Shown here piece by piece: positions 1-7,089 of a DNA stretch of 7,089 bases (the first letter of the stretch is position 1; the number at the start of each line of letters is the position of its first letter). The stretch is from assembly GCA_947177885.1 (NCBI GenBank), contig CAMWWF010000143.1:1-7089 (forward strand), in the 5' to 3' direction. The translations under genes and the position numbers were made by a program. The stretch is from an uncultured Lachnospiraceae bacterium (GTDB lineage Bacteria; Bacillota_A; Clostridia; Lachnospirales; Lachnospiraceae). Below the pieces are notes generated by a model, which made no database searches, was not told the origin of the DNA, and saw only the letters and a program-made list of their open reading frames with translations.

Positions 1-76
1 CGGATCAGAGCACAGGCCGGGAAAGCGGCCAGGGAACGGGAGAAGCCCCGGGTCAGAGTACAAGCCGGGAAAGCGG
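1..76 (+). repeat. Two diverged 48-bp-spaced direct repeat units in the linker
   Basis: Bases 1-28 and 49-76 match at 25 of 28 positions, exactly 48 bp (16 codons) apart, so the unit keeps the reading frame. Each codes Gln-Ser-Thr-(Gly/Ser)-Arg-Glu-Ser-Gly. The array probably continues upstream of the window and builds a flexible linker. Confidence 0.65.
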
Positions 77-524
77 TTCCATGCAGGGAGATGGAAGTGC
101 AGGAAGCCCGGTGGCATCCAAAGAAGACGCCGGTGGGCAGCAGACGGAAACGTCAACGGAACTGAGGGATGATTACGAGGACAATTTTGATGTGGGAACT
201 GAGGAAGCGGCTGAATTTGCAAGAATGATAAAAGAGGCCGTGGCACAGAAAGATGTGGAAATGCTGGCAGGACTGACGGGATTTCCTGTCTATGTAGGAT
301 TGTCAGGAGGAATCGTGGTAGAGACAAAGGAAGATTTTGTCGCTTTGGATGTGGAGGAACTTCTGTCAGATGAAATGGTCAGTTCCATAGCGGAAGCCGA
401 CGAAAACGATCTGAGTCCGAGCATGGCGGGTTTTACTTTATATGGAAGTGACGGCGCTCCAAGCATTACATTTGGGGTTCGCGAAGGCAGCTTGGCAATA
501 AGCGGGATCAATTATGGCTATTAG
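1..524 (+). CDS. C-terminal part of an unrecognised, probably exported protein
   Basis: The reading frame is open from the first bases of the window, so the gene begins upstream; the first internal Met (position 81) lies inside a low-complexity linker and has no ribosome site, so it is not the start. The visible 173 residues fall into two parts. The first 60 or so are a Ser/Gly/Gln/Glu-rich linker with a repeated Gln-Ser-Thr-x-Arg-Glu-Ser-Gly motif. The last 120 or so are an acidic folded domain beginning near DDYEDNFDVGTEE, with a helix (EEAAEFARMIKEAVAQKD), a FPVYVGL strand, and an end at SGINYGY. This helix-then-strand pattern recalls small NTF2-like C-terminal domains of clostridial lipoproteins, but I cannot assign a family. 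A long hydrophilic linker before a small domain usually means a tethered extracytoplasmic protein; that is inference, because the N-terminus is missing. A strong terminator follows the stop codon. Confidence 0.75.
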   Translation, partial: DQSTGRESGQGTGEAPGQSTSRESGSMQGDGSAGSPVASKEDAGGQQTETSTELRDDYEDNFDVGTEEAAEFARMIKEAVAQKDVEMLAGLTGFPVYVGLSGGIVVETKEDFVALDVEELLSDEMVSSIAEADENDLSPSMAGFTLYGSDGAPSITFGVREGSLAISGINYGY

Positions 525-583
525 AGCTGCAGCCACACTCTAAACATTCAAAAGCGGTCTTTACGATGAAACGAGCATACATT

Positions 584-637
584 ACAGACGGGCGGATACA
601 TCTTTTGAGAAGGTATCCGCCCGTCTGTCTGCTTTTT
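584..637 (+). terminator. Strong Rho-independent terminator after the first gene
   Basis: A 16-bp perfect stem (584-599 with 613-628, ACAGACGGGCGGATAC and its complement) encloses a 13-nt loop and is followed by CTGCTTTTTG. It lies 60 bp past the first stop codon and between two convergent genes. The minus-strand side has no comparable U-tract, so it chiefly serves the plus-strand gene, although it may also slow transcripts leaving tmcAL. Confidence 0.88.
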
Positions 638-704
638 GTCTGATGAAATATTTCAGGATATTCATATTACGGATAGCGAAGCATGTCCTGTTGGAAAATC
701 TGTT

Positions 705-1940
705 TTATATAGTCACAATAGGAATTGAATATTCACTGATCGCATTTCTTTCCTTGAAGTGGGGAGTCACACTTCGATAGATATGGGATATCAGAATATC
801 CTGTTTCAACATATGCATGGCATCGGCATCCATGTAATTTTCCGCATCCGCAAGCTTTGTCACCAGAGGGATGGAAGACTGCTCCTTGATAGCGCCGAGC
901 AGTTCGTGTGCATCTTTTCGAATGCCCAAAACGCGGGCATACGGGGCATAATCCTGTCTTCGACAGAATTCCACATCATCCTGTCGGATATTCAGCAGGA
1001 TATGAAGCAGACAGCGGCTGATGCGTGTGTAGGTCATATTTTTGGTCTTTAACAGATCACAGAAATTGTCATAGTCACGATAGTAGTCCAGGTTATTGCA
1101 TATCCGGTCTGACAGGTCATCAGATACATCCAGGTATTTCTGATATCCCTGTTCCCGTTCCAACAGTAATTTGTAGTATAGCAGATCCGAAAAATCATTG
1201 CTGCAGATAAAAGAAGATTCTTCCATGGCCTGCTGTAAGATCCGCCATGCTTCCGCGGGCATCTGGGATTTTATGGAATCGGGAGTCTGACCTGTAAACA
1301 GCGCCTGACGGAGAGCAAGTGCGGAACAATATTCCGTGTCAGTCATCCGGTCATGATAGCCGGCCCCGGTGCGGAGAACGGAGACAGGCTCCATCCCGCT
1401 GTTCCGACGGAGCAAAGCCTTAATGTATTCAATTCCAAGGATATTGTTTGGGGTGGAGAACACATCTCTGTAGGCCTGCAGAAAAGGATAGTTGAGGAAC
1501 ATCGCCCAGTTGCGCGCGTTAGGGTAGGATACCCCCTGCTTCAGGTATTGACGCATGGTGGCGGAGAAGTCTTCCGGTTCTTCCACAAGAATATGGGCGG
1601 CCTTTGTCATGACTTCCACATTGCCGCATTCGCTGCCAAAACACAGATGAGTCACTACGCCCAGCTTATCCAGAGTGGAAACGGATCCCATGGCAAAGTA
1701 TTCGGCGCTGGAGGCCGAGTAGATGGCGGGCAGTCCGAGAACAAGATCCGCACCGCATCTGAGAGCCATTTCGGCACGACGGTGCTTATCCAGAAGAGCG
1801 GGAGCGCCGCGCTGCACAAAATCACCGCTCATGATCACAATCGTGTAGTCAGCACCGGTCATTCGGCGGGATACATCCATCTGATATTTGTGTCCGTTAT
1901 GAAAAGGATTGTACTCTGCAATAATTCCGTTTACTTTCAT
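705..1940 (-). CDS. tmcAL: tRNA(Met) cytidine acetate ligase TmcAL (YlbM)
   Basis: This enzyme activates acetate with ATP to form acetyl-adenylate and transfers the acetyl group to the wobble cytidine (C34) of elongator tRNA-Met, giving N4-acetylcytidine; it acts in the cytosol. The 411-residue length fits the family (about 400-415). The N-terminus carries the nucleotidyltransferase signature GIIAEYNPFHNGHKY with the HxGH motif at residues 14-17, then MSGDFVQRG (37-45) and STPNNILGIEYIKAL (162-176), all typical of YlbM proteins. I start it at the Met followed by KVNGIIAEYNPF because a GAGG site sits 5 nt upstream; an in-frame ATG seven codons earlier has no ribosome site. It is transcribed divergently from pta-ackA, across a shared 353-bp region. 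Supply of its substrate acetate by the neighbouring operon is an attractive link but is inferred. Confidence 0.93.
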   Translation of the reverse strand: MKVNGIIAEYNPFHNGHKYQMDVSRRMTGADYTIVIMSGDFVQRGAPALLDKHRRAEMALRCGADLVLGLPAIYSASSAEYFAMGSVSTLDKLGVVTHLCFGSECGNVEVMTKAAHILVEEPEDFSATMRQYLKQGVSYPNARNWAMFLNYPFLQAYRDVFSTPNNILGIEYIKALLRRNSGMEPVSVLRTGAGYHDRMTDTEYCSALALRQALFTGQTPDSIKSQMPAEAWRILQQAMEESSFICSNDFSDLLYYKLLLEREQGYQKYLDVSDDLSDRICNNLDYYRDYDNFCDLLKTKNMTYTRISRCLLHILLNIRQDDVEFCRRQDYAPYARVLGIRKDAHELLGAIKEQSSIPLVTKLADAENYMDADAMHMLKQDILISHIYRSVTPHFKERNAISEYSIPIVTI

Positions 1941-1945
1941 GAAAA

Positions 1946-1951
1946 CCTCAT
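1946..1951 (-). promoter_or_regulatory. Ribosome binding site that sets the tmcAL start
   Basis: On the minus strand ATGAGG is followed by TTTTC and then the chosen ATG. The alternative ATG at 1961 is preceded by TATGTTGCCGC, with no purine-rich site, so the shorter protein is favoured. Confidence 0.7.
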
Positions 1952-2000
1952 TTCCCCGCATGCGGCAACATAATTTACGATAATACGATCATAAATATCG

Positions 2001-2025
2001 ATTATAAATGTGAAAAAAATAACAA
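2001..2025 (-). promoter_or_regulatory. Possible tmcAL promoter (good -10, poor -35)
   Basis: A perfect TATAAT lies on the minus strand at 2006-2001, about 60 nt before the tmcAL start codon. The nearest -35-like element, TTGTTA (2025-2020), is only 13 bp away, too close for a normal sigma-A promoter, and the position 17 bp upstream reads AAATTT. If the -10 is used, the cre site lies at about its -35 region. Confidence 0.3.
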
Positions 2026-2027
2026 AT

Positions 2028-2043
2028 TTGAAAGCGTTTACAT
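2028..2043. promoter_or_regulatory. Catabolite-responsive element (cre), CcpA operator
   Basis: The 16-mer TTGAAAGCGTTTACAT fits the Gram-positive cre consensus WTGNAANCGNWNNCWW at every defined position. It is centred about 122 bp upstream of the predicted pta transcription start and about 40 bp upstream of the possible tmcAL start. In Bacillus, CcpA bound upstream of the promoters activates pta and ackA during carbon excess, so activation of the operon is the family precedent. The distance here is longer than usual, and repression of tmcAL is equally possible. Confidence 0.7.
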
Positions 2044-2122
2044 ATGCTAAAGTAACGAAAAAATGACAAGAAAGCACAAGGGATATGTACTTGAAAATAT
2101 ACAATTTAACGAATATTGAGCC

Positions 2123-2151
2123 TTGTACATTGTCTTTGTATCTAGTATAAT
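2123..2151 (+). promoter_or_regulatory. Sigma-A promoter of pta-ackA
   Basis: TTGTAC (-35) and a perfect TATAAT (-10) are separated by exactly 17 bp. Transcription should start near 2158, giving a leader of about 135 nt before pta. This is the best promoter match in the window and suits a highly expressed fermentation operon. Confidence 0.85.
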
Positions 2152-2157
2152 ATAAAT

Positions 2158-2287
2158 ATCTCAGTTTGTTAAGTGCAAAACTAACAAATCTTAGTAAAAA
2201 ATGTTACTGCTCACATGCAGGGATGAGCACTGTGGACAGTATCAAAAAACAACGAGGGACAAGCGGTGAACCCGCCGGAAAGGAGAA
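2158..2287 (+). promoter_or_regulatory. Structured 5' leader of pta, no known riboswitch recognised
   Basis: The predicted transcript passes through several short inverted repeats: TTTGTTA/TAACAAA (2165-2171 with 2182-2188), AGTAA/TTACT (2193-2197 with 2204-2208), GCTCA/TGAGC (2209-2213 with 2224-2228), ACTG-TGGA-CAGT (2229-2240), and GCGG/CCGC (2263-2266 with 2272-2275) just before the ribosome site. TACTG at 2205-2209 could instead pair with CAGTA at 2237-2241, which would disrupt two of the other hairpins. The individual stems are short and none fits a riboswitch class I know, so regulation by this leader is speculative. Confidence 0.3.
2279..2285 (+). promoter_or_regulatory. Ribosome binding site that sets the pta start
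   Basis: AAAGGAG lies only 2 nt from the first ATG (2288) but 8 nt from the second (2294). The second spacing is normal, and the resulting protein begins MSYIDLIKE, like its homologues, so the second ATG is chosen. Confidence 0.75.
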
Positions 2288-2293
2288 ATGGAT

Positions 2294-3295
2294 ATGTCAT
2301 ACATTGACCTGATCAAGGAGAGAGCAAGGCTTGACAAAAAGACGATTGTTTTACCGGAATCCAATGACAAGAGAACTCTGCTGGCAGCAGCAAAAATTGT
2401 GGAAGAGGGCATTGCTGACATTATCATGATCGGTGACGAAGAGAAGATCATGGATGGTGCAGGCTGGTTGGAGGTTGATCTGACCGGTGTTACGGTTGTC
2501 AACCCTAAGAAGACGGATAAGCTGGACGGCTATGTGAATCTGTTATATGAAACCAGAAAGGCAAAGGGCATGACGGAGGAGAAGGCGAGGGAGATCCTTC
2601 TGAACGATCCTCTGACTTTCGGTATTGTTATGGTCAAGGCAAATGAGGCGGACGGTATGGTTGCCGGTGCCTGTCATTCTACAGCAGATACTTTGAGGCC
2701 TGCGCTGCAGATCCTGAAGACGGCTCCCGGCGTGAAGCTTGTTTCCGCGTTTTTTGTTATGGATACCCAGTTCAAGGATCAGGGCGAGAATGGGGCATTT
2801 CTGTTTGCCGACTGTGGTCTGAATCAGGATCCGACTGCGGAGGAGCTTGCCGCCATCGCGGATTCCTCTTCCAGAAGCTTCCAGGCGCTGGTGGGTCCCA
2901 AGCCTGTTATCGCAATGCTGAGCCATTCCACCAAGGGAAGCGCAAAGCATGTATTGGTAGATAAAGTGGTGGAAGCGACCAGGATCGCACAGGAACAGTA
3001 CCCTCATCTGACACTGGACGGTGAACTGCAGCTGGATGCCGCACTGGTGCCCGGCGTGGCTAAGACCAAGTCCCCCGGAAGCCCTGTAGGCGGCAGAGCC
3101 AACATATTGATCTTCCCCAACCTGGATGCGGGAAATATCGGATATAAGCTGGTACAGAGACTGGGCGGAGCGGAAGCTTACGGCCCCATGCTCCAGGGTA
3201 TAGCAAAACCCGTCAACGATCTCTCCCGTGGATGCTCCTGGCAGGATATAGTAGGCGTAGTAGCCATCACCGCCGTCCAGGCACAACTTGTCTAA
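2294..3295 (+). CDS. pta: Phosphate acetyltransferase
   Basis: Pta converts acetyl-CoA and phosphate to acetyl phosphate and CoA, the first step of acetate fermentation; with AckA it yields one ATP per acetate. The protein is 333 residues, the length of the short, single-domain clostridial and Bacillus form (the E. coli enzyme has a long N-terminal extension that is absent here). Family landmarks include KKTIVLPESNDKRTL near the N-terminus, the conserved block ADGMVAGACHSTADTLRPAL in the middle, GSAKHVLVDKVVEAT, then DGELQLDAALVPGVA, KSPGSPVGGRANILIFPNLD, and a C-terminal GNIGYKLVQRLGGAEAYGP. The second ATG is taken as the start because its ribosome-site spacing is normal. ackA follows after 89 bp with no terminator, so the two form an operon read from the strong upstream promoter. 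There are no frame breaks or missing conserved blocks. Confidence 0.97.
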   Translation: MSYIDLIKERARLDKKTIVLPESNDKRTLLAAAKIVEEGIADIIMIGDEEKIMDGAGWLEVDLTGVTVVNPKKTDKLDGYVNLLYETRKAKGMTEEKAREILLNDPLTFGIVMVKANEADGMVAGACHSTADTLRPALQILKTAPGVKLVSAFFVMDTQFKDQGENGAFLFADCGLNQDPTAEELAAIADSSSRSFQALVGPKPVIAMLSHSTKGSAKHVLVDKVVEATRIAQEQYPHLTLDGELQLDAALVPGVAKTKSPGSPVGGRANILIFPNLDAGNIGYKLVQRLGGAEAYGPMLQGIAKPVNDLSRGCSWQDIVGVVAITAVQAQLV

Positions 3296-3384
3296 GGGCA
3301 GAGCCAAGACATCATTTGAATGGATGCCATGCCTGCATGAGCAGCCGGGTAATAAACAAATAAATGAAAGGAAATATGATCAAC

Positions 3385-4581
3385 ATGAAGGTATTAGTTA
3401 TTAACTGTGGTTCTTCTTCCCTGAAATTTCAGCTCATTGATTCCGAGTCTGAGAAATGCCTTGCAAAGGGGCTGTGTGAGAGGATCGGTATTGACGGCAG
3501 TATGATCACATACGCTCCTGAAGGTGGCGAGAAGGAGAATACCGTAACTCCTATGCCTGACCATACCGAGGCGATCCGTCTGGTACTGGAGGCGCTGACC
3601 AATCCTGAGACCGGCGTTGTGAAGAGTTTGGACGAGATCGGAGCGGTAGGACATCGCGTGGTACATGGCGGTGAGAAGTTTGCCGAGTCCGTTGTCATTA
3701 ATGATGAGGTGCTGGCGGCAGTTGAGGAGTGCAACGATCTGGCGCCTCTTCACAATCCCGCGAACCTGATCGGTATCAACGCATGTAAGAAGCTGATGCC
3801 CGACACTCCCATGGTGGGCGTGTTCGATACCGCTTTCCATCAGACCATGCCTGAGGAAGCGTATATGTACGGACTTCCTTACGAATATTATCAGAAATAT
3901 AAGATCAGAAGATACGGCTTTCACGGCACCAGCCATTCCTATGTATCCAAGAGAGCGGCGGAAGTTCTGGGTAAGGAATATGAGGATCTGAAGATTATCG
4001 TCTGCCATCTGGGCAATGGCGCATCCGTATCCGCGGTAAAGAACGGAAAATGTGTGGATACCTCCATGGGACTTACTCCCCTGGAAGGTCTGATCATGGG
4101 TACCCGCTCCGGTGATATGGATCCTGCCATCATTGAGTTCCTTGCGCATAAGGAGAACAAGAATATTGATGAGATCATGAGCGTGCTGAACAAGAAGTCC
4201 GGCGTGCTGGGCCTTTCCGATAATCTTTCCTCCGATTTCCGTGACCTGGAGGAGGGATTCCATAAGAATGACGCAAACGCAGTCCGCACCATGAAGACCT
4301 ACTGTTATCGCGTGGCAAAGTATATCGGTTCCTATGTGGCGGCAATGAACGGTGTGGATGTGATCTGCTTTACCGCCGGGATAGGCGAGAACGCGGCGCT
4401 GGTACGCACTATGGTATGTGAATATCTGGGCTATCTGGGCGTGAAGGTAGACGAGGATGCGAATCACAAGCGCGGCGAGGATATCGCTATCTCTACCGCC
4501 GACAGCAGGACTACCGTTATGGTGATTCCCACCAACGAAGAGCTTGCTATTGCGCGTGAGACGGTACGCCTGGTGAAATAG
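3385..4581 (+). CDS. ackA: Acetate kinase
   Basis: AckA transfers the phosphate of acetyl phosphate to ADP, giving acetate and ATP; it belongs to the ASKHA (acetate and sugar kinase/actin) superfamily and is cytosolic. The protein of 398 residues matches the usual length of about 400. Expected active-site residues are all present: Asn7 in VLVINCGSSSLKFQL, Arg91 in GHRVVHGG, Asp148 in FDTAFHQTMP, His180 in YGFHGTSHSYVS, the HLGNGAS phosphate loop (208-214), Arg241 in MGTRSGDMDP, GIGENA (332-337), and Glu385 in TNEELAIA. The start is somewhat uncertain. AAAGGA at 3367-3372 is 12 nt from this ATG and 3 nt from an in-frame ATG at 3376 (401 residues); an ATG at 3364 precedes the site. I follow family homology, in which the protein begins MKVLVINCG. 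It is the distal gene of the pta-ackA operon and ends at a hairpin terminator. Confidence 0.97.
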   Translation: MKVLVINCGSSSLKFQLIDSESEKCLAKGLCERIGIDGSMITYAPEGGEKENTVTPMPDHTEAIRLVLEALTNPETGVVKSLDEIGAVGHRVVHGGEKFAESVVINDEVLAAVEECNDLAPLHNPANLIGINACKKLMPDTPMVGVFDTAFHQTMPEEAYMYGLPYEYYQKYKIRRYGFHGTSHSYVSKRAAEVLGKEYEDLKIIVCHLGNGASVSAVKNGKCVDTSMGLTPLEGLIMGTRSGDMDPAIIEFLAHKENKNIDEIMSVLNKKSGVLGLSDNLSSDFRDLEEGFHKNDANAVRTMKTYCYRVAKYIGSYVAAMNGVDVICFTAGIGENAALVRTMVCEYLGYLGVKVDEDANHKRGEDIAISTADSRTTVMVIPTNEELAIARETVRLVK

Positions 4582-4674
4582 GCTGTCCAGACGGAATGCA
4601 ACGGTCAATTGCGAGAGGCCGGTGTAACGGCAGTGTAAAACAGCAGTACAAATGAGAGATGCAGGTACATAGAC

Positions 4675-4728
4675 GGGACAGAGCAGCCATGTGTGATATG
4701 GCGGCTCTGTCCCCATTTCTCCTTTCTA
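4675..4728 (+). terminator. Terminator of the pta-ackA operon
   Basis: The stem pairs 4675-4684 with 4704-4713 (GGGACAGAGC), then, after one A-G mismatch, 4686-4690 with 4698-4702 (GCCAT), around a 7-nt loop. The tail CATTTCTCCTTTCT is pyrimidine-rich but has an interrupted T-run, so termination may be incomplete. It lies about 95 bp beyond the ackA stop. Confidence 0.8.
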
Positions 4729-4737
4729 AAAAAATGT

Positions 4738-4818
4738 CACCTGTGGGTTGCTGATCCAACGGCCACCTGTATCGCAATAAATTGTGAGCAGATCGTTGGA
4801 TCACAACCACACAGGTGG
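4738..4818. repeat. 81-bp inverted-repeat unit flanked by a 9-bp direct repeat
   Basis: Arms of 24 nt (4738-4761 and 4794-4817) are complementary from CACCTGTG to GATCCAACG, with single-base offsets in the GGTTG stretch. The 32-nt centre holds a further CACCTGT copy and a CAAT/ATTG mini-palindrome. AAAAAATGT occurs immediately on both sides (4729-4737 and 4819-4827), as a target duplication would. It may be a very short transposon-like element or a regulatory palindrome. Because six of the nine flanking bases are A, the duplication is less certain than that of the neighbouring element. Confidence 0.55.
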
Positions 4819-4883
4819 AAAAAATGTATTTTTGACGATATGTTCTGTGAGCTCTTGAATTCTTCCGAAATTTTCCTCTTTAT

Positions 4884-5027
4884 GTAACTGTTCAGAACCA
4901 AGCAAATTTAGCTGAAATGTGTGATGAATGCCTGCATTCAATCACATATTTTCAGATGAATTTATTTGGCGAGAGCCAAACACCGAGGAAACACGCAGTG
5001 TTTTCGAGGTTGGTTCTGAATAGTTAC
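4884..5027. mobile_element. 144-bp miniature transposable element (MITE), possibly IS66-related
   Basis: The ends are 18-bp inverted repeats: GTAACTGTTCAGAACCAA on the left and its complement on the right with a single difference (17 of 18). The eight bases CTCTTTAT occur directly outside both ends (4876-4883 and 5028-5035), a clean target-site duplication. Ends beginning GTAA together with 8-bp duplications are typical of the IS66 family, so a non-autonomous derivative of such an element is the likeliest origin; the family assignment is inference. There is no transposase and no credible gene inside. The interior is almost wholly made of further inverted repeats: a long imperfect hairpin at 4904-4963, a GAGA-loop hairpin at 4965-4980, and a hairpin at 4983-5009. 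It sits between the ackA terminator and the promoter region of the sigma-type gene. Confidence 0.82.
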
Positions 5028-5054
5028 CTCTTTATTATTTTTTCCCTTATCCTG

Positions 5055-5060
5055 TATAAT
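5055..5060 (+). promoter_or_regulatory. Isolated TATAAT -10 element beyond the mobile element
   Basis: A perfect TATAAT follows the mobile element's right-hand target duplication. At 17 bp upstream the sequence reads TTATTA (5032-5037), a poor -35 that overlaps the duplication, so this is only a candidate start for a transcript leading into the sigma-type gene about 165 bp downstream. Confidence 0.3.
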
Positions 5061-5165
5061 TGGTACTGTTGTGCTCTTAACCGTGTGTCTGTGGTTGTTT
5101 TTTGACGGATCTGATCGTTCGGATCTGGAGCTATGTGCTTTATAACAAAAATAATAAGAGGAAAT

Positions 5166-5191
5166 GAAACTTTTGATTTTCCTGTAAAGTC
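5166..5191 (+). promoter_or_regulatory. ECF-sigma-type promoter before the fused sigma gene
   Basis: GAAAC followed directly by TTTT, then AGTC 17 bp after GAAAC, resembles the promoters used by SigV, SigM and SigW type ECF factors (GAAAC, spacer 16-17 with a T-run, CGTC), with one mismatch in the -10. ECF genes are commonly autoregulated from such sites. Transcription would begin near 5198, about 27 nt before the start codon. Confidence 0.45.
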
Positions 5192-5201
5192 AAACTATTA
5201 T
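5173..5201 (+). promoter_or_regulatory. Alternative sigma-A promoter overlapping the ECF-type site
   Basis: TTGATT and TATTAT are spaced by 17 bp, matching sigma-A at four and five of six positions. The start would fall near 5208, immediately before the AAGGAGGG ribosome site. It could give basal expression without an ECF factor. Confidence 0.4.
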
Positions 5202-5224
5202 ACAGAGAAGAAGGAGGGACCGAA

Positions 5225-6238
5225 ATGAAGATCTTGACTGGAAGAAAGGCGAAGGAGGAGAAGGTAGAGCAGCTTTTGCTGGAAAATTATGACAGATACT
5301 ACCGGCTTGCCTTCAGTTATGTGCACAATGCCGATGATGCGGGTGATATTGTGCAGAACGGCGCATACAAGGCGATACGAAACAACGGCAGTCTGAAAAA
5401 TCAGGAATATGCGGCAACATGGCTCTACAGGATCATGCTGAACGAAATATATGATTTCTTCCGACGGAGACGAACGCTTTCCATAGAAGCGCTGGAGGAA
5501 TCGGGCGAGACGGAACCTGCCGGTATGGACACCTATCAGGATTTTGATCTGAGGGCGGCGCTGGATACCCTGAGTGTGGAGGACAAACTGGTGGTGGAAC
5601 TGCGGTACTTTGAAGATGTGAAACTGCAGGAGATCGCGGAGATTGTAGTGAAACTGCCTGAAGACAGGGAGGAAGCAGTTCCTGAGGTTCAGGAAAATAT
5701 GGCGAGATCGGTGGAGGAGATCAATGCGCAGATGCAGCAGATATCTGAGCAGTTGATTGCAGAGTTTGAAGAAGCTCTGCAATCCGAGGAAGGCTATCTG
5801 GATATGATGGTGGATTCGGAGATCGTCAGCAGCACGGAAGATTATTTTTCCCTGAAGCTGATCTGCTATCAGGCAGTGGGAAGCGGCGCCGAGTGGGCTT
5901 ATTTCTATACCGTGGATCTGAACACCGGGAAAAGGCTTTCCCTGTCAGACTTTTTTGCGGCGGATGCCGACTTTATCACTCCTGTCAGCAATAATATCAA
6001 AGAGCAGATGAGGGCTCAGATGGCGGAGGATTCATCAAAGATGTACTGGGTGGACAGTACGGACATGCCGGAATGGAACTTTGAAGCGATCACGGAAGAA
6101 ACCTCCTTCTATCTGAATGGCGATGGCGAGCTTGTCATCTGCTTCAATGAGGGAGATGTGGCGCCTATGTATATGGGGTACGTGGAGTTTGTGATTCCGG
6201 GAGAAGCGGTGGAGAATATCTGGAGTTATGGAGATTAG
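5225..6238 (+). CDS. In-frame fusion of truncated SigV-like ECF sigma factor and RsiV-like sensor domain
   Basis: Residues 14-82 form an ECF sigma region 2 (LLLENYDRYYRLAFSYVHN, DDAGDIVQ, AATWLYRIMLNEIYDFFRRRR). Residues 113-140 begin region 4 (DTLSVEDKLVVELRYFEDV, KLQEIAEI) but stop in the first helix of the helix-turn-helix, so the DNA-recognition helix is absent. From about residue 141 the protein becomes the outer domain of an RsiV-like anti-sigma factor: a long helix (150-185), then a DUF3298-type domain (about 205-330) with GSGAEWAYFYTVDLNTGKRLS, ITPVSNNIKEQM, DGELVICFNEGDVAPMYMG and VEFVIP. The N-terminal sigma-binding segment, membrane helix and cleavage site of RsiV are missing, so the sensor part would stay in the cytosol. 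RsiV normally senses lysozyme outside the cell. A good ribosome site (AAGGAGGG, 7 nt) supports the start. The simplest reading is an internal deletion joining a sigV-rsiV pair; a true new fusion or an assembly join remain possible. Confidence 0.85.
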   Translation: MKILTGRKAKEEKVEQLLLENYDRYYRLAFSYVHNADDAGDIVQNGAYKAIRNNGSLKNQEYAATWLYRIMLNEIYDFFRRRRTLSIEALEESGETEPAGMDTYQDFDLRAALDTLSVEDKLVVELRYFEDVKLQEIAEIVVKLPEDREEAVPEVQENMARSVEEINAQMQQISEQLIAEFEEALQSEEGYLDMMVDSEIVSSTEDYFSLKLICYQAVGSGAEWAYFYTVDLNTGKRLSLSDFFAADADFITPVSNNIKEQMRAQMAEDSSKMYWVDSTDMPEWNFEAITEETSFYLNGDGELVICFNEGDVAPMYMGYVEFVIPGEAVENIWSYGD

Positions 6239-6521
6239 AGCGGTCTTTCCATGACACTGTGCGGTACCCCATAGTGGAATTTGGATATCGGAGATTTTTA
6301 TTCCGGGGATATTTTGTTTGTGTGAATTTATTGCCCGGTACATTGCTTTTGTGAAAGAGGGGAGTACCGTACTGCAGGCGTTTGTTTTCGATAGGATCAG
6401 AGTTTAGTCCGTTCAGGAAAATTGTGAGATCGAAAGCCGTTCATCAGAAAATTGAAAGAAAAGCTTAATGTAAAGTTAACAATTGTGATACATATCCGGT
6501 AGAAAATAGTAACATAAGTTT
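6239..6521 (+). other. Gene-free spacer with a weak promoter candidate
   Basis: I see no convincing gene, RNA or strong terminator here, so the fused gene has no clear end signal. CGGTAC/GTACCG (6336-6341 with 6364-6369) is a small inverted repeat with a 22-nt loop. TTAACA (6476-6481) and TAGAAA (6500-6505), 18 bp apart, could serve as a weak promoter for the next gene. The stretch is more AT-rich than the genes around it. Confidence 0.35.
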
Positions 6522-7089
6522 ATGAAGGGAAACAGGCAGGATATGGGTAACAACAGATTGCAGTACGCGGAGAGAGACAGGGAACGGCAGGACGGGATAC
6601 AATATGTGCAGAATAGCAGGACACAGGGAAGTAGGGTCCCGGAAACAGATGTGCGGCGTGCACAGGGCGGCAGGACACAAAACGGCAGACCACAGAATGT
6701 ACGCGGCGGAAGAACAGGAAGCGGAAGAGAACAATACCTGTGGCAGCAACAGCAGCAGATGCAGCAGCAACAGAATGTTCTGAGGAGAAAGCTGGGAATA
6801 CTTTCTTTTTTCATGTGTCTGTTGCTGCTATTGAACGCTGTGATGGCGGTAAGCATGCATTTTCGGATGCGGCGGATGAATGAGGCTTTGAAGATCATGC
6901 AGAGCCATTTGTCCCTGGGAGGACTGGATGGCAGCGTGGAAGACGGGTTGGCATCCTCCGGAGGACAGGCCGGGACGGGAGAGACGGATTCGGCGGCCGG
7001 GGCGGGTTCGGGCATCCGTGTGACGGGGCAGGATTATGTCAACCTGTGCGGGCTGGAGTATGTGGACAGGCCCTGTCAGCGCACAATGG
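6522..7089 (+). CDS. N-terminal part of a single-pass membrane protein with a basic Gln-rich cytoplasmic tail
   Basis: The frame stays open to the window end (189 codons seen), so the gene is cut off. Residues 1-90 are highly polar, rich in Arg, Gln, Gly and Asn, with repeated RxQ/RGG-like steps (RAQGGRTQNGRPQNVRGGRTG) and a Gln tract interrupted by one Met (75-84). Residues 91-112 form one membrane helix (LGILSFFMCLLLLLNAVMAV); the Arg/Lys before it suggests the N-terminus is inside. A short helix (MNEALKIMQSHL), then a Gly/Ser/Ala-rich linker (132-163), lead to GIRVTGQDYVNLCGLEYVDRPCQRT. That last segment recalls the region preceding C39-like peptidase domains in some Lachnospiraceae surface proteins, but too little is visible to assign a family. 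An in-frame stop at 6510-6512 bounds the start. The first ATG lacks a clear ribosome site, and the Met at 6543 is an alternative. Confidence 0.8.
   Translation, partial: MKGNRQDMGNNRLQYAERDRERQDGIQYVQNSRTQGSRVPETDVRRAQGGRTQNGRPQNVRGGRTGSGREQYLWQQQQQMQQQQNVLRRKLGILSFFMCLLLLLNAVMAVSMHFRMRRMNEALKIMQSHLSLGGLDGSVEDGLASSGGQAGTGETDSAAGAGSGIRVTGQDYVNLCGLEYVDRPCQRTM
6744..6773 (+). repeat. CAG/CAA codon run coding a Gln tract
   Basis: Ten codons, nine of them CAG or CAA and one ATG, code QQQQQMQQQQ just before the membrane helix. Mixed CAG and CAA lowers the chance that this is a simple slippage tract; it may still vary in length between strains. Confidence 0.6.

Follow-up and report, generated by a model that had tools for sequence, protein, structure and literature searches.

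A regulator or the remains of one

When two genes that normally stand apart are found in a single open frame, the question is whether a new protein has been made or two old ones have been lost. This question is raised by a 7,089-nucleotide stretch of DNA from an uncultured Lachnospiraceae bacterium (assembly GCA_947177885.1, contig CAMWWF010000143.1, positions 1 to 7,089; hereafter the window), in which a SigV-like sigma factor runs without interruption into the sensor domain of an RsiV-like anti-sigma factor. An earlier note on this DNA, made from the letters alone, had proposed a dominant-negative sigma factor, a cytosolic ligand-responsive regulator, or simply a relic. The comparisons described here make it likely, with a probability of roughly 0.8, that the frame is a young in-frame deletion allele in which sigma and anti-sigma factor were lost together, and not a regulator of a new type.

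Anatomy and predicted structure of the fused frame

The features of the locus are given in Table 1. As the earlier note had described, the frame is intact through the join, with zero internal stops, and Pfam, NCBIfam and alignment agree with its division into a SigV-like part that ends in the first helix of the region-4 helix-turn-helix and an RsiV ectodomain. The sigma region 2 expected of an ECF30 (SigV) factor is whole (Sigma70_r2, residues 20–83, E 3.1e-11, 43.3 bits against a Pfam cut-off of 24). Region 4 stops before the recognition helix; Sigma70_r4_2 matches in part (residues 108–140, profile positions 3–35 of 54) at 24.1 bits, below the cut-off of 25.7, and the STVKSRLYR stretch of the orthologs is absent by alignment. 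The RsiV-like half aligns from about residue 93 of Bacillus subtilis RsiV, and it keeps most of DUF4163, of which the first part is gone, together with all of the DUF3298 that marks an RsiV ectodomain (residues 241–325, E 5.3e-20, 72.6 bits against a cut-off of 24.1). The NCBIfam profiles are likewise matched in part, SigV at positions 4–134 of 160 (121.8 bits, below the full-length cut-off of 190) and RsiV at positions 94–279 of 286 (159.9 bits, below the full-length cut-off of 250). Judged by where the alignment begins, the RsiV half would lack its sigma-binding segment, membrane helix and signal-peptidase site, the last of which is placed at 66/67 in B. subtilis (PMC6066255); this too agrees with the earlier note. 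An ECF30 gene stands beside a separate rsiV, whereas here the RsiV part shares the frame of the sigma part. If made, the fused product would be expected to stay in the cytosol, unable to read a -35 element or to sense from outside.

Table 1. Features of the fused locus, numbered from the first letter of the window.
Feature	Position	Strand	Remark
Fused open reading frame	5225..6238	+	337 aa
SigV-like half, residues 1–138	5225..5638	+	Pfam, NCBIfam, alignment
RsiV-like half, residues 139–337	5639..6238	+	Pfam, NCBIfam, alignment
Join, CGGAGAT	5637..5643	+	One copy in the window; two in L001, bounding its extra 478 bp
Candidate ECF promoter (presumably SigV-type), TGAAACTTTT-N13-AGTC	5165..5191	+	Upstream of the fused gene
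Ribosome-binding site AAGGAGG	5211..5217	+	7 bases ahead of ATG, read from sequence

An AlphaFold2 model built from 54 sequences has a mean pLDDT of 69 and a pTM of 0.47. By blocks of ten, pLDDT is 75–86 over residues 11–80, below 50 over residues 129–160, and 62–84 from residue 161 on. Foldseek matches the model best to RsiV, chains 5jen_A and 5jen_C (E 1.8e-09, target TM-score 0.55), and next to other DUF3298-type chains and sigma factors. The two folded islands that are predicted around a frayed join would suit a soluble or an unstable product alike.

Of 40 sigV–rsiV loci, the window included, 14 have the pattern TGAAAC-N14..19-NGTC, which was composed after the window had been compared with its nearest relative, no more than about 260 bases ahead of the sigma match; mononucleotide shuffles give an expectation of 0.135. 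The other 26 loci do not have it. Both of the closest relatives described below carry the promoter-like motif at a similar distance. In B. subtilis, sigV is autoregulated (PMC8287880); if this applies here too, the promoter in the window has lost its own sigma factor.

Two-gene relatives at the same locus

The nearest locus found in the species-genome collection, L001, comes from a metagenome-assembled genome of an uncultured Lachnospiraceae bacterium. Its order is ackA, sigV (7001–7513), rsiV (7491–8492) and a homolog of the last gene of the window, with sigV and rsiV as separate, overlapping genes. In L041, which with L001 makes up the two closest relatives with DNA, the two genes are likewise separate and overlap at the matching place. 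The frameshifts in all close relatives that the earlier note had named as the sign of a decaying relic were not seen in these two, which keep both genes. The dS between the window and L001 is 0.62 in the sigma half and 0.78 in the RsiV half, resembling that of ackA (0.81) and pta (0.78), and the locus is therefore an ortholog and not an imported copy. A mobile origin was considered and rejected: the DNA had no phage match, no relative was found in viral contigs, and the plasmid relatives were only distant (38 records, all below 60% identity).

The frames that flank the locus (3–524 and 6522–7088) are cut by the ends of the window and have no Pfam match; their homologs in L001 are a lipoprotein-like protein (2089–2745) and a 410-residue protein (8622–9854). 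Just past the equivalent of the left edge of the window (window position 1 corresponds to L001 2214), L001 has a second, diverged ECF sigma/DUF3298-type pair at 615–2008. A second pair of this type might regulate or replace the broken one.

The join and its age

The window is collinear with L001 on either side of the join, which falls between residues 138 and 139. Measured on L001, where sigV and rsiV overlap, the loss is 478 bp, and it amounts to about 32 residues of a 170-residue SigV together with 108 of the 307 residues of P0003, the nearest RsiV without the join among the matches listed, or 134 of the 333 residues of the L001 RsiV. The earlier estimate of 120–150 lost codons was close. 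What is missing comprises the region-4 recognition helix and, on the P0003 count, the first 108 RsiV residues, a part that aligns with, and probably contained the counterparts of, the sigma-binding segment, membrane helix, signal-peptidase site and amphipathic switch of B. subtilis RsiV, as their roles are described in PMC5014341 and PMC6066255.

When 200,000 breakpoint pairs were placed at random in this part of the locus, the fraction identical over seven or more bases was 0.00074, and 0.329 of 20,000 random deletions left one frame to the rsiV stop. The CGGAGAT pair in L001 can accordingly be read as the mark of a deletion between short repeats, and the true parent presumably carried the repeat as well; in L041 the 7-mer is absent on the rsiV side.

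The join recurs in a second record, P0002, a protein of 267 residues encoded on a 1400-base ENA contig. Its first residue corresponds to residue 71 of the fused frame; it spans the same join, and over its whole length residue 243 is the single departure from the window. Clustered at 90% identity, P0002 represents 13 member sequences; the joined allele may thus not be rare, although the members need not all carry the join. P0003, which has the N-terminal part, differs from the window at just 8 of 199 shared residues, which makes it probable that the deletion is young. Two of these differences fall on strongly conserved positions: at residue 319 the window and P0002 both have Y in place of C, and at residue 243 the window alone has F in place of L. 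The best SigV among the matches listed is 89% identical, and the sigV partner of P0003 is not among them.

It is likely that the ancestor had sigV and rsiV as overlapping genes behind a promoter that was probably read by their own sigma factor. An event between two short CGGAGAT copies would then have taken about 0.48 kb, comprising the end of sigV and the start of rsiV, and the two frames would have met by chance, at about one in three. The loss of both functions at once would have been a harmless route, with no unchecked sigma factor left behind, and without its own sigma the promoter would depend on a related sigma factor or on leakage. The anatomy, the join and its second record, the two-gene relatives, the repeat in L001 and the lack of excess decay are observed, whereas the parent sequence, the age of the deletion, the loss of function and the neutrality of that loss are reconstructed in this account.

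Searches for other fusions

Three protein searches, of which the best 120 of 1404, 2436 and 1883 matches were taken, listed 343 proteins, and both halves occur in four of these. P0002 has this join; in P0004, P0005 and P0126 the join is a different one. P0004, a cluster of one, has a truncated region 4 and a complete RsiV; P0005 has 6 members and lies beside a separate RsiV, P0122, with 2511 members. A joined frame was found in none of 39 sigV–rsiV pairs in the fetched loci, nor in any of 22 more pairs, which came from 29 additional loci that include at least one repeat (L073 is the same as L004). No sigma part before residue 112 combined with an RsiV part beyond residue 200 was found among the matches listed from 99 and 397 genomes, two overlapping sets; in the larger, five candidates per genome were scored, and matches were kept to an E of 1e-20. 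Here a longer fusion would appear as a pair of matches, a case checked in the fetched loci only. The earlier note had suggested a search of related genomes for sigma region 2 and DUF3298 in one chain, and among the matches listed this join was seen only in P0002. A conserved family of sigma–DUF3298 fusions was rejected on this ground, P0002 alone sharing the join among the best-120 lists and the fetched loci, although more distant fusions may stand lower among the matches. One-frame sigma–RsiV joins arise occasionally, and none seen here has spread widely. Among the papers listed, at the level of titles and the openings of abstracts, no description of a sigma–DUF3298 fusion was found, which is weak evidence of absence.

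Several observations concern near cases. The two genes share a frame but for stops in 8 of the first 39 pairs and in 4 of the additional 22; in L003, L004, L006, L008, L044, L046, L051 and L062, sigV and rsiV are in-frame with stop codons between them, and loss of these stops could join them. An apparent fusion of 501 aa in G003 was discarded, its frame being broken by one TAG. P0249 (139 aa) is a short SigV near the L001 type whose match ends at about residue 103, with other sequence after it; this is either a broken allele or a contig fault. At G259:C16:14837-15367 an RsiV-like match lies within an open frame of 880 residues, with no adjacent sigma match among the matches listed.

Selection or decay in the two halves

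The window departs from conserved positions at 4 of 97 sites in the sigma half and 4 of 110 in the RsiV half, within the range of the comparison orthologs (0–12 in 21 sigma rows and 0–8 in 20 RsiV rows). These rows were taken from the top of the protein lists together with L001 and L041 and include some near-duplicates; P0002, P0004, P0248, P0249, P0023 and P0024 were left out as joined, broken, duplicate-like or outgroup. The dN to L041 is 0.128 for the window against 0.154 for L001 in the sigma half, and 0.129 against 0.139 in the RsiV half. The dN/dS between the window and L001 is 0.115 in the sigma half and 0.176 in the RsiV half, and the values for L001 and L041 (0.073 and 0.099) and for ackA and pta (0.016 each) are all lower, a contrast given little weight with the dS between L001 and L041 near saturation (2.1 and 1.4). 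The earlier note had proposed a comparison of substitution rates in the two halves; dN to L041 is not raised, although dN/dS is higher for the window and L001 than for L001 and L041. That either half alone has decayed or accelerated was rejected, there being no excess either at conserved positions or in dN to L041.

Under simulated neutral change of 2%, 0.43 of 2000 runs kept a stop-free frame, and under 3% the fraction was 0.29 of 2000; the open frame therefore proves little for a young allele. The intact frame, the motif, the ribosome site and the kept conserved positions fit a young loss, and they also fit a product under selection. Since the distance to P0003 is small, young neutral loss is the simpler reading.

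Weighing the explanations

It is improbable that two intact genes lie here and that the join is an assembly or sequencing artefact. The other sigma–RsiV joins (P0004, P0005 and P0126) do resemble rare alleles or errors, and P0002 might come from the sample of the window itself; however, P0002 is a record with its own source that has the same join with one residue different, and the window and L001 agree in order on either side of the join. Assemblers, in addition, use words far longer than a 7-bp repeat, which counts against misassembly. The assembly collapse that the earlier note had considered has become less likely with P0002 and the shortness of this repeat. Somewhat less credible still is a dominant-negative factor or co-sigma, in which a free sigma-2 domain would bind the RNA polymerase clamp and compete, or pair with a region-4 protein. 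Region 2 is complete, with two conserved-site changes in residues 1–83 (S54N and Q81R) and a model at pLDDT 75–86 over residues 11–80, the promoter-like motif and ribosome site are retained, and the split of a sigma factor into sigma-4 (SigO) and sigma-2 (RsoA) proteins provides a precedent (PMC8103513). Against this, the architecture was not found in relatives among the matches listed and the fetched loci, residues 129–160 are predicted below pLDDT 50, and no partner gene is seen in the window.

The least probable of these readings is a cytosolic regulator in which the internal RsiV ectodomain would bind a ligand and gate the sigma-2 domain. DUF3298 is kept, RsiV chains (5jen_A and 5jen_C) head the Foldseek matches, regulatory C-terminal extensions are known in other ECF groups (PMC8999054), and P314 and Y316 appear from their alignment to correspond to P259 and Y261, two residues with a part in the binding of lysozyme by B. 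subtilis RsiV (PMC5014341). Lysozyme, however, is an outside ligand; the strongest of the three contacts, S169, falls opposite G221 in the alignment, adjoining S220; the first part of DUF4163 is lost and region 4 is cut; and the strongly conserved residues 319 and 243 are changed relative to P0003. It is also very unlikely that the SigV-type promoter, now driven by a related ECF sigma factor, yields a soluble sigma-2/DUF3298 protein that occupies the polymerase clamp and so weakens the response of that factor; if true, a single deletion would have turned an activator and its inhibitor into a feedback brake. Of the three readings of the earlier note, then, the relic is the best supported, as a short-repeat deletion that is probably young and that no relative was seen to keep, and the dominant-negative and ligand-responsive readings gained no positive evidence.

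Comparison with known systems

If the locus is a young deletion allele, a single step can remove a sigma/anti-sigma pair and skip the state of an unchecked sigma factor, and such a loss can leave an open frame that mimics a new domain architecture. Sigma/anti-sigma fusions from metagenomes are best compared with their two-gene neighbours before they are named as regulators. The closest known system is SigV–RsiV (ECF30), the pair with which B. subtilis and other Firmicutes respond to lysozyme. The two halves descend from a pair of this kind that stood at the same locus, and the promoter-like motif is kept; that system, however, consists of two genes with the sensor outside the membrane, whereas the fused frame is one chain without the recognition helix, sigma-binding segment, membrane helix and site-1. 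Known fusions of ECF and anti-sigma factors (IutY, ECF48, ECF52, ECF53 and some ECF36) keep the whole sigma factor. The fused frame does not pair a whole sigma factor with an inhibitory domain as IutY, ECF48, ECF52 and ECF53 do, region 4 being incomplete and the sigma-binding segment absent. Like these groups and some ECF36, it has sigma and anti-sigma parts in one polypeptide, but their extension is described as inhibitory and often membrane-bound, with proteolysis known or expected (PMC8999054), and the fused frame is without a membrane helix. RsoA of the SigO–RsoA system likewise has sigma-2 alone as its sigma part; RsoA has a sigma-4 partner (PMC8103513), and none is seen in the window. 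Sigma-SsdA of Actinoplanes missouriensis also has a sigma domain and a second regulatory domain in one protein, but there a functional sigma domain is joined to an anti-sigma antagonist domain (PMC10733313), while the fused frame carries a sensor ectodomain in its place.
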